Assembly (NCBI GenBank): GCA_030065755.1
Contig: JASJDA010000040.1
Location: forward strand, 1 to 33,058
Source: Prochloraceae cyanobacterium
GTDB lineage: Bacteria > Cyanobacteriota > Cyanobacteriia > Cyanobacteriales > JASJDA01
Reading direction: 5' to 3'
DNA length: 33,058 nucleotides
The first letter of the stretch is position 1. Every line of letters starts with the position of its first letter. Shown piece by piece: positions 13,821 through 15,878 of this stretch. Below the pieces are notes generated by a model. It was given only the letters and a program-made list of their open reading frames with translations. It ran no database searches and had not been told where the DNA came from. A program made the translations under genes and the position numbers.

Positions 13821-14136
13821 CGGAACTCCCTTTCTAGCTACGATCTGCTCTATTGCCATTGAAAGAGTAACTAGGTATAGTTACCCGATCTTCCTCCGAC
13901 TGAGCGAACAATATTTTAAGTATAGAAGCTGCCTCAGCTTTTTCGCGCAAACTCAACTTTTCTAGAAATTTGACCTCGGTCAAAGCCTCGGTGGGAAAAG
14001 CGAACGGGTAACAGGTAACAAAGGGAAACTGTTCCCTTTTTCCTAGGATACAATCCTTTCTTTTTATTAATGTCAATGATTAGACTCACCGAAAATTTGG
14101 GATATTATCCTTTCGTTTCTAGGGTATACATATTAA
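13821..14136. other. Intergenic region upstream of the coiled-coil/TPR gene
   Basis: About 300 bases. It contains the promoter side of the TPR gene and the hairpin at 14020-14041. A minus-strand frame crosses it but shows no family resemblance and is probably not a gene. Confidence 0.4.
14020..14041 (+). terminator. Possible hairpin terminator or repeat fragment
   Basis: AAAGGGAA, loop ACTG, TTCCCTTT and a short T run. It is preceded by GGGTAACAGGTAAC, a type of sequence often dispersed between cyanobacterial genes. No plus-strand gene ends here, so a terminator role is doubtful. Confidence 0.3.
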
Positions 14137-14282
14137 GTCGTCGAGGGGCAACCGAAGACTCTAAACGGACGTGGAGCAAGCATAAGACTACTGATGTAGC
14201 AATTTGTGATAAAACGTCAACCCACCGAGAGACAATAGTCTGGTAGGAATCTCCGCACATAAGAGGGCGGAGTGGATGTCAA
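14137..14282 (+). mobile_element. IS200/IS605-type remnant: tnpB tail and right end
   Basis: From 14137 a frame of 20 codons reads VVEGQPKTLNGRGASIRLLM and stops at 14196-14198. The KTLNGRGASIRL part resembles the C-terminal tail of cyanobacterial TnpB proteins. It is followed by a hairpin, CTCCGC/GCGGAG at 14251-14272, and then TGGATGTCAA, which resembles the right end of IS200/IS605/IS1341 elements. The body of tnpB is absent. The assignment rests on resemblance and position, not on an alignment. Confidence 0.45.
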
Positions 14283-14410
14283 ATTAATAGGTTAATTCCG
14301 ACTAATCCTGGATCTCAACCTCGTTTAAGCATTCGCAGCTTATACCAATTTCGGAAAATCTCACTACAGATGGTTATTTAATCGACTTTTGCAAACTAAA
14401 CCATTTAGCT

Positions 14411-14466
14411 AAAAGCGCAGAAGCCCCAGACTGTACCTGATAAGGTCAGTGTGGGATGAATGCGTG
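14411..14466 (+). mobile_element. Second IS200/IS605-type right-end hairpin
   Basis: AGAAGCC leads into the stem CCCAGACTG/CAGTGTGGG (14425-14433 with 14447-14455, one mismatch). Next come a single bulged T, an inner 4-base stem ACCT/AGGT and the loop GATA. The sequence ATGAATGCGTG follows. It has the same architecture as the hairpin at 14664-14694. No transposase frame precedes it. Confidence 0.45.
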
Positions 14467-14538
14467 AAAAAAGTAGTGCGGACTTCATATCAATATTAAC
14501 TGAAAGTTGATAAGATATGAAGTCCAGCACTATTTTTT
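14467..14538. repeat. Long inverted repeat directly after the second right end
   Basis: The left arm contains GTAGTGC then GGACTTCATATC (to 14491). The right arm contains GATATGAAGTCC then AGCACTA (from 14514). Outer A and T runs extend the pairing to about 25 bases with minor bulges. It could be a bidirectional terminator or a miniature foldback element. Confidence 0.6.
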
Positions 14539-14622
14539 TCAATCTTCATGTTTGGCGAGTTTTTTAAGTAAATATTTCTGGTAAAATATAGATATTAATA
14601 CAAGTTTTTTCCCATCTTAAAG

Positions 14623-14704
14623 CTCAGCGAGTATCCGAAGGGTTACCTGGAGTTGCTGAGAAGCCTACACTGTATACGTCAGTATCAGTGTAGGAGTATG
14701 TCAC
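14623..14704 (+). mobile_element. Third IS200/IS605-type right end, omega-RNA-like
   Basis: CTCAGC (14623-14628) pairs with GCTGAG (14655-14660). AAG then leads into a second hairpin: CCTACACTG/CAGTGTAGG (14664-14672 with 14686-14694), perfect over 9 pairs, a bulged T, the inner stem ATAC/GTAT and the loop GTCA. The sequence ends AGTATGTCAC, a typical right end of cyanobacterial IS605-type elements. In complete elements this region encodes the guide (omega) RNA scaffold of TnpB. No tnpB gene is present here. Confidence 0.5.
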
Positions 14705-14778
14705 TCGTGCAGGAGGGGGCTATGCCGACACGCACTGCGGAAGCATAGCGGCAACTGCTTTTGACTGCACCCATGTGT

Positions 14779-14818
14779 TAGCAACACTTACCGATGAGGA
14801 ATGACTTTTAGTGTTGCT
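14779..14818. terminator. Inverted repeat at the 3' end of the orphan gene
   Basis: AGCAACACT and AGTGTTGCT are perfect 9-base arms separated by 22 bases. The inner arm lies within the last codons of the 163-residue protein gene. It may act as a terminator for that minus-strand gene, though no clear U run follows. Confidence 0.35.
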
Positions 14819-15299
14819 CTTGCGAGCGCCATTGATGTAACTTTTGGGCCCAATTATAAATTTGAATAATATACTCAGAAGCTTTGATACGATACTCATG
14901 TTCGGGTAGACTATTAAACAATTTTTTTAAAAGATCGCTATTGGATATCACTTTTTCGACTTCGTCCAAGTCGGACGAGCTAGAAGATAATGGAGACTCA
15001 GATAGGATCATTAGAGCTATTTCTACATCTACTTCCCAAGTATCAAGGGTTGGGGTTGAGTTATTAGCTAAAGACAGACAATGATAAACTTTTTGTTGTA
15101 AGTTTAAATAAATTTCTCTGTATTCACAATCAAAAGCGAACTGTTTTTCCTCGGAATCATAACTGGCTTCTAGATTTTCTGAGGAGTTCCTAGAAAAGCC
15201 TCTTGCTACTCCCTCTACCTCAAGAAGATTTACTTCTCGCTCTACTGAGCTTACTGAAACTCCAGATGTATATTTTTTTAATAAATTTATTTTTGGCAT
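14808..15299 (-). CDS. Hypothetical 163-residue protein
   Basis: I do not recognise a family. The protein is acidic and soluble, without signal peptide or membrane segment. The first 65 residues are variable and polar. The rest looks helical, with conserved-looking stretches such as EIYLNLQQKVYHCL and EHEYRIKASEYIIQIYNWAQ, and a Ser-rich stretch in the middle (SPLSSSSSDLDE). It starts with ATG at 15299 without a clear Shine-Dalgarno. It lies in an accessory zone, downstream of IS-like ends and next to foldback elements, which suggests horizontal acquisition or a lineage-specific gene. The ordered helical C-terminus argues for a real gene. Confidence 0.6.
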   Translation of the reverse strand: MPKINLLKKYTSGVSVSSVEREVNLLEVEGVARGFSRNSSENLEASYDSEEKQFAFDCEYREIYLNLQQKVYHCLSLANNSTPTLDTWEVDVEIALMILSESPLSSSSSDLDEVEKVISNSDLLKKLFNSLPEHEYRIKASEYIIQIYNWAQKLHQWRSQEQH

Positions 15300-15553: not shown

Positions 15554-15643
15554 ACGGTAGAACATTTATAATAAGATTCGGCCCTTTTTGGCTTGCGTTC
15601 GTAGTAGAAAAAAACCCAAAATATGGTAAAAATTAAAATTATC

Positions 15644-15783
15644 CTTTCCGCACGTCAAAATGTAATATATGATGATTACCTGATTGGGGCTATTTTGCGA
15701 ACTGCTTGCAGCAGCGCTTGCACTCCCGCAAAAATAGCCTGACATCATACTACAAAATACATGACAACTTGACGTGCGGAAAG
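15644..15783. repeat. 140-bp double foldback with 15-bp terminal inverted repeats (MITE-like)
   Basis: The ends CTTTCCGCACGTCAA (15644-15658) and TTGACGTGCGGAAAG (15769-15783) are exact inverted copies. Inside lies a second inverted pair, GGCTATTTTGCG (15688-15699) and CGCAAAAATAGCC (15727-15739), with one extra A. A 60-codon minus-strand frame crossing it is not credible as a gene. It could be a miniature inverted-repeat transposable element or a structured RNA. Confidence 0.7.
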
Positions 15784-15878
15784 TGAATTAAAAGCATTGC
15801 TTCTCGATCGCCCAATTCTTCTCTTTTCACCATTGCCGAAAAATCCTTAATGATAGAAAAAAAAAGGACGAAATAGAA

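Follow-up and report, generated by a model that had tools for sequence, protein, structure and literature searches.

Relics of two different IS200/IS605-group tnpB elements in a contig of a Prochloraceae cyanobacterium

The window analyzed here, a whole contig of 33,058 nt (contig C323 of an 8.46-Mb genome in 455 contigs), holds, between two reverse-strand genes, what is left of two distinct tnpB elements of the IS200/IS605 group rather than a single end in triplicate. Three hairpins, at 14251-14272, 14425-14455, and 14664-14694, are present near the positions given in a preliminary description of this DNA, which had read them as three successive IS200/IS605-like right ends. Their IS200/IS605 type is supported, as is the absence of an intact tnpB from the window, but the reading as three right ends was wrong. 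Hairpin 1 is the right end of one decayed element (element 1), and a second element (element 2) has hairpin 2 as its left end and hairpin 3 as its right end; there are thus two elements, one of them with both its ends. In the reading that we prefer, with a probability of about 0.9, element 1 is an internally deleted copy of a multicopy tnpB-less element of ~390 bp, and element 2 is a tnpB-only (IS1341-type) element that was cut down to its two ends and inserted 3' of TTTAG and whose guide RNA is probably broken. The earlier suggestion of nested insertion scars came close, in that one of the elements sits in a dispersed repeat.

Element 2, its sister copies, and its insertion site

Element 2 (14409-14704, + strand) is a ~296-bp PATE-like derivative of a tnpB-only element, identified from three sister elements on contigs C151, C402, and C401 (loci L010, L011, and L012, respectively). 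In all three, the counterpart of window positions 14404-14610 is a left end and the counterpart of 14609-14704 is a right end, and 0.3 to 1.2 kb separates the two end matches. The C402 element, with a left end, an open 417-aa frame, and a right end, is the intact sister of element 2, and the C151 and C401 copies are partly deleted sisters with tnpB remnants between their ends. The 417-aa frame encodes TnpB (Pfam OrfB_IS605 and Cas12f1-like_TNB), the closest natural solved relative of which is ISDra2 TnpB (E value of 4e-40); the homology extends over nearly the whole length, with the RuvC and zinc-finger motifs aligned. Hairpin 2 (14425-14455, + strand; supported by folding and by the left-end family alignment A3, in which two registers are mixed) is what the preliminary description had taken for the second right end. 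In all sister elements it precedes tnpB, with the TTAGC target before it and no TCAC after it, and when the well-aligned left ends of this family are compared, all 15 have TTAGC at the boundary. Hairpin 3 (14664-14694, + strand; supported by folding and covariation) overlaps the tnpB stop codon and is followed by TATGTCAC. Judged by homology to the sister copies, then, hairpin 2 is the left end and hairpin 3 the right end of element 2.

Much of the earlier description of these two hairpins stands. They share an outer stem, a bulged T, a 4-bp inner stem, and a 4-nt loop; the 9-bp outer stem, however, does not hold for hairpin 2, in which a G.G mismatch leaves 4+4 bp. The inner stems differ (ACCT/AGGT versus ATAC/GTAT) and each of them pairs, and outer pair 3 changes from C-G to T-A. 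Both hairpins are unusually stable (z scores of -4.7 and -5.5, with 0 of 200 shuffles as stable), also when folded as single-stranded DNA (-5.1 and -5.8). The compensatory changes are present, but the comparison is between the left and right ends of one element, and because both ends would bind the same transposase, these changes alone are no evidence of RNA.

The conserved left region of element 2 continues to about position 14608 and is followed by the last 25 codons of tnpB. At the core-deletion junction (14605-14616), which has TTCC microhomology, ~1.17 kb of tnpB is missing by comparison with C402, leaving codons 393 to 417 and the stop codon (14616-14693, + strand; 88% in tblastn with the C402 TnpB), and this remnant and the RNA scaffold discussed below occupy the same bases. 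A long inverted repeat (14476-14530; z score of -9.3) lies in the stretch that runs from the left end to tnpB in the intact sisters. Its counterpart in C338 is located just 3' of a reverse-strand tnpA remnant (left-end model match 3' of tnpA in L051), and the repeat is probably an old bidirectional tnpA terminator.

When window positions 14331-14409 are joined to 14705-14800, the result matches a dispersed repeat, at least eight copies of which align with it straight through the junction (uninterrupted copies at L014, L016/L150, L147, L148 [twice], L149, L151, L152, and L153). Element 2 therefore inserted 3' of TTTAG (14404-14408), the target in which the left half of the interrupted repeat (14340-14408) ends, and the right half follows at 14705-14790. 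In all uninterrupted copies the base after TTTAG is T, and C14409 is therefore most likely a base of the element, with TTTAG as the target. An orthologous empty site, sought in one genome of the same genus, was not alignable. The repeat itself (TTATACCAATTTCGGAAAATC...GCAACTGCTTTTGACTGCACCC), with at least eight other copies, is perhaps mobile in its own right. Partly overlapping its right half, positions 14756-14860 show 96% identity to C95:3676-3780 over the 3' end of the open reading frame at 14808-15299, and we regard this stretch as a duplicated gene end.

Element 2 is a PATE by the definition that we tested: both of its end hairpins are homologous to those of a tnpA/tnpB element, it has no transposase and no tnpB beyond the 25 remaining codons, its ends are fused by a core deletion, and its insertion, 3' of a short target that is always the same, left that target unduplicated. 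Such ends-only IS605 derivatives are already known. The PATEs of Haloquadratum walsbyi are palindrome-associated transposable elements (PMC3119063), and a PATE-like element of Halanaerobium keeps the left hairpin, the last 58 nt of tnpB, and the right end (PMC7290912). PATEs share with element 2 the IS605-type near-terminal palindromes, a short conserved target, the lack of a transposase, and ends fused by core deletion (PMC3119063, PMC7290912). IS1341-type members of the IS200/IS605 group are built like C402, with tnpB between a left and a right end and without tnpA, and element 2 differs from them in having lost nearly all of tnpB.

In the origin that we propose, element 2 is a tnpB-only (IS1341-type) element that a core deletion reduced to its left and right ends and that inserted 3' of TTTAG in the dispersed repeat without target duplication. 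A Y1 TnpA acting in trans would have moved it, recognizing the two bulged-T hairpins in single-stranded DNA and making its cuts after TTTAG and after TCAC, and the ends of element 2 should still serve a transposase. In the intact sisters, the right end would double as the omega-RNA of TnpB. The transcript of element 2, with the 5' strand of the pseudoknot deleted, should give no working guide RNA. Among the genome's 16 Y1 matches no autonomous TnpA element with exactly the ends of element 2 was identified, and the search returned only the C338 remnant and a weak candidate, C31.

Element 1, an internally deleted tnpB-less element

The sequence of hairpin 1 occurs at four further places in the genome, with 89 to 99% identity. 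The last ~180 bp of element 1, up to the right cleavage site after TGTCAA (14104-14282, + strand), are 98 to 99% identical to L002 and L003 and, from position 14134 onward, 90 to 91% identical to L004 and L005; all four matches stop at, or only a few bases from, the cut after TGTCAA. A full copy at C73 is ~390 bp long, and the C123 copy (L002/L026) has the same structure plus a ~100-bp hairpin insert (CGGAAGGAAATTATTTTTAATAAGGAAGTCC...) absent from other copies. Both full copies have the left hairpin, and neither contains a transposase- or TnpB-sized open frame. The 18 nt at 14086-14103 of the window (TCACCGAAAATTTGGGAT, + strand) are the same 18 nt that stand before the left hairpin in C73 and C123. 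They therefore represent a surviving left-end fragment, and the window copy (14086-14282) is internally deleted, the left hairpin and ~200 bp behind the fragment having been lost. Because the left hairpin is gone, element 1 is immobile. Of the two end hairpins of a PATE it retains only the right one, though C73 and C123 have both, and it is best called the relic of a PATE-like element and not a complete one.

The right-end hairpin of element 1 (CTCCGC/GCGGAG; 14251-14272, + strand) is supported by folding and conserved in alignment A2. Taken as a 150-nt RNA, its stability is unremarkable (z score of -0.87). For the last ~150 nt of element 1, the homologous sequences in the tnpB elements at C452, C139, C64, C144, and C415 are made up of the 3' end of tnpB and the right end, and A2 with RNAalifold gives an omega-RNA-like right-end scaffold at 14130-14282 (+ strand), in which both sides have changed in 9 of 27 pairs (for example, CTAC/GTAG to CCTC/GAGG to CTTC/GAAG). 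For the 5' strand of the pseudoknot, A2 shows a candidate pairing, GGCA/TGTC, with four of five pairs, and other copies of the family have three to five of five. Element 1 keeps a complete scaffold, without the upstream part. When the noncoding family members C73 and C274 are compared, identity is 91% in the scaffold and 96% in a 5' module, versus 58% for the spacer between them. A 27-mer taken from this conserved module had no exact match in other genomes, and plasmid searches returned the shared right end at most, or nothing. Folding lent no support to the idea that the full-length RNA of this family has unusual stability (z score of -0.5).

Right ends as RNA and the competing readings

The preliminary description had noted that such regions encode TnpB guide RNA scaffolds in complete elements, and the right-end scaffold does covary as an RNA. 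In A1, an alignment of 19 right ends of the hairpin 3 family, all from this genome, 94.5% of cells pair and both sides have changed in 12 of 25 pairs; none of 500 shuffles reached the covariation score, and slid controls gave at most three both-side-changed pairs. RNAalifold, given no structure beforehand, predicted nearly the same one. A4 extends the set with relatives to 26 sequences and also takes in a long-range pair; here 97.6% of cells pair, and compensatory changes are seen in 14 of 26 pairs, again with 0 of 500 shuffles reaching the score. In the long-range pair, GGCAT, ~100 to 107 nt from the end, meets ATGTC, which only the last two bases follow, and the GGCAT strand is present in tnpB-linked copies. 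This pseudoknot covaries in L158, a tnpB-less copy within A4 (GGCGT/ACGTC), and in L173 (GGCAA/TTGTC), where a gap in A4 keeps the cell uncounted. More distant copies with ACGTC have GGCGT or GACGT upstream, and C95 and C367 show no partner. Direct support for the pseudoknot in A4 consists of few changes, four of its five pairs never varying, and the members of A4 were chosen for a GGC-type motif at that distance, which candidate L167 lacks.

Tested as an omega-RNA, the right-end scaffold adjoins the tnpB 3' end across the hairpin 3 family, and its stems are backed by covariation in A1 and A4. Similar right ends lie directly behind tnpB elsewhere in this genome, in its relatives (L155 and L173), and on an Oscillatoria plasmid, which was the sole plasmid record to contain a similar stretch. 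According to the preliminary description, its reading would fall if no similar ends stood next to tnpB in related genomes or if the covariation were not significant; because tnpB-adjoining ends were found and the scaffold covaries, neither is the case. The right ends of this family look like omega-RNAs, and the window copies are most likely relics. In the ISDra2 omega-RNA, a 116-nt scaffold, positions -105 to -103 form a pseudoknot with -5 to -3 (PMC10097598), and since the pseudoknot of the hairpin 3 family lies at like positions, position and role agree. In ISDra2, as here, the RNA scaffold consists of the tnpB 3' end plus the right end, the guide is the flanking DNA, and a short motif to the left of the element acts as the TAM (PMC8612924, PMC10097598). 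The differences are that the TAM or target is TTTAG rather than TTGAT and that the right cut falls after TCAC (PMC8612924, PMC10097598); element 2, moreover, lacks tnpB and the 5' pseudoknot strand. In the available text of the PATE reports (PMC3119063, PMC7290912) RNA is not treated, whereas the present analysis put the right-end scaffold to the test as an RNA.

The scaffold of element 2 (14619-14704, + strand; 86 nt) comprises stems 14623-14628/14655-14660, 14634-14636/14649-14651, and 14639-14641/14646-14648 and the hairpin at 14664-14694. Apart from the pseudoknot it is perfect; it adopts the consensus fold, and its score of 111.5 bits with the scaffold model is the joint best in the genome. 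Over 90 nt the right end is identical to that behind tnpB at C89. The 5' pseudoknot strand GGCAT is absent from it, with no GGCAT-type partner at the expected distance in element 2, and the core deletion ends just 3' of the position of that strand. Because the deletion removed one strand of the pseudoknot, the guide RNA of element 2 is probably broken; if the right-end RNA were made, the first ~16 to 20 nt of the flank at 14705-14790 would be the guide.

That one or both window copies are nevertheless live orphan omega-RNA genes, loading TnpB made elsewhere in the genome, is unlikely. Intact TnpBs with matching right ends are available at C402, C435, and C175; element 2 has the scaffold of C89 over 90 nt and the consensus fold, and element 1 keeps a 153-nt covarying scaffold. 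Against this, element 2 has no 5' pseudoknot strand and only 96 nt of homologous scaffold versus the 116 nt of the ISDra2 omega-RNA (PMC10097598), a promoter scan found no site above chance, and element 1 has lost the upstream part common to full copies, so that its guide would need read-through transcription. The orphan omega-RNA suggested earlier is thus doubtful for the copy at 14409-14704 and possible for the first segment. It is quite improbable that these are host-function structures (terminators, attenuators, or a host small RNA) unrelated to mobility: the location between two reverse-strand genes and the terminator-like hairpin at 14476-14530 would fit, but every piece recurs in the genome within mobile elements of defined boundaries, and no Rfam family reached the gathering score, permissive searches giving weak unrelated matches or none. 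Three independent nested right ends, for which the IS200/IS605 style of all hairpins and the likeness of hairpins 2 and 3 might speak, are already refuted by the position of hairpin 2 before tnpB in all sisters, with TTAGC ahead of it and no TCAC after it, and this reading has next to no probability left.

A wider tnpB-less family

The reading of the window as relics of two tnpB elements is mainly a correction, and the wider family to which it leads matters more. The scaffold model matches 61 places in the genome. In 23 of the 61, the 500 nt upstream contain a TnpB zinc-finger domain in the same orientation; the other 38 lack one, although some of these are located close to the end of a contig or retain remnants of tnpB. 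Part of the 38 form a coherent lineage without tnpB, which has a conserved interior and a private variant before the scaffold (GTGGACTTAAAAC). The tnpB-less elements L121, L116, L120, and L126 (C341, C415, C145, and C270, respectively) share a conserved interior of ~140 nt 5' of the scaffold (CTGAAAGAAGGAGAATAGCCTCATCGG...GGTTGTAACCAGAAGTC...CTCGGTGGAAGCGTAAAAGTTTAT), for which no Rfam match was found. Related tnpB-less copies in other genomes (L156, L158, L159, and L169) keep the pseudoknot strand, and their tnpB matches are none or cover no more than the final ~30 codons, a stretch that is itself the scaffold. The newer lead is a tnpB-less lineage, found here and in four or more other genomes, that retains the omega-RNA scaffold and a pseudoknot spanning ~100 nt. 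The element 1 family follows this pattern too, its scaffold and 5' module being far better conserved than the spacer. Because none of these parts is coding, the constraint is on DNA or RNA, and the wider family may encode guide RNAs without any protein gene. Element 1 differs from PATEs, as far as the available text of the reports describes them, in belonging to such a tnpB-less family with a conserved noncoding interior.

Stand-alone, trans-encoded omega-RNAs have been reported for IscB (Ktedonobacter), as have guide-RNA-only IS605 derivatives; in these cases, as here, a scaffold has no adjoining nuclease gene, a likeness that we take as a lead only. A more ambitious reading, which we hold tentatively and at somewhat less than even odds, is that the window contains relics of guide-RNA-only transposons, that is, tnpB-less IS605-type elements whose noncoding interior is a selected omega-RNA gene borrowing TnpB from other copies. 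It draws on the 38 scaffolds without an upstream zinc-finger domain, on the lineage that keeps scaffold and pseudoknot, with the compensatory change in L158, and on the conservation pattern in the element 1 family. If tnpB-less elements do persist by making guide RNAs, TnpB would be a shared resource of the cell, which "cheater" transposons could use to keep their sites. The question is directly testable here, the genome having 127 matches to the TnpB zinc-finger domain but only 16 Y1 transposase matches, of which several are truncated.

Several smaller observations were made alongside. Right-end-only mini-elements of ~60 to 78 bp occur at L104, L105, L108, and L113 (C423:8687-8772, C431:6552-6637, C134:43632-43717, and C54:31804-31889, respectively), with further ones at L107 and L114 (C295 and C109). 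They begin inside the scaffold (CGAG... or CTGGAG...) exactly after the family target TTTAG, CTTAG, or TTTTAG, at unrelated sites, and look like transposition products with an aberrant left end rather than random truncations. The tnpB genes at L095, L102, L103, L106, and L094 (C64, C218, C415, C120, and C89, respectively) carry one or two palindromic inserts of ~48 to 57 bp (GCGCACCGCCCGCGCCGAGG... and GCGGATGCGACCCAGCTCGAATTC...). In several of them the frame is still open (455 and 446 aa versus 417), and a similar palindrome is found in tnpB-less elements. Elsewhere in the window, a ~150-bp element at 15640-15790 combines a long hairpin (z score of -6.0) with terminal inverted repeats (TTTCCGCACGTCAA...TTGACGTGCGGAAA) and is probably a different MITE.
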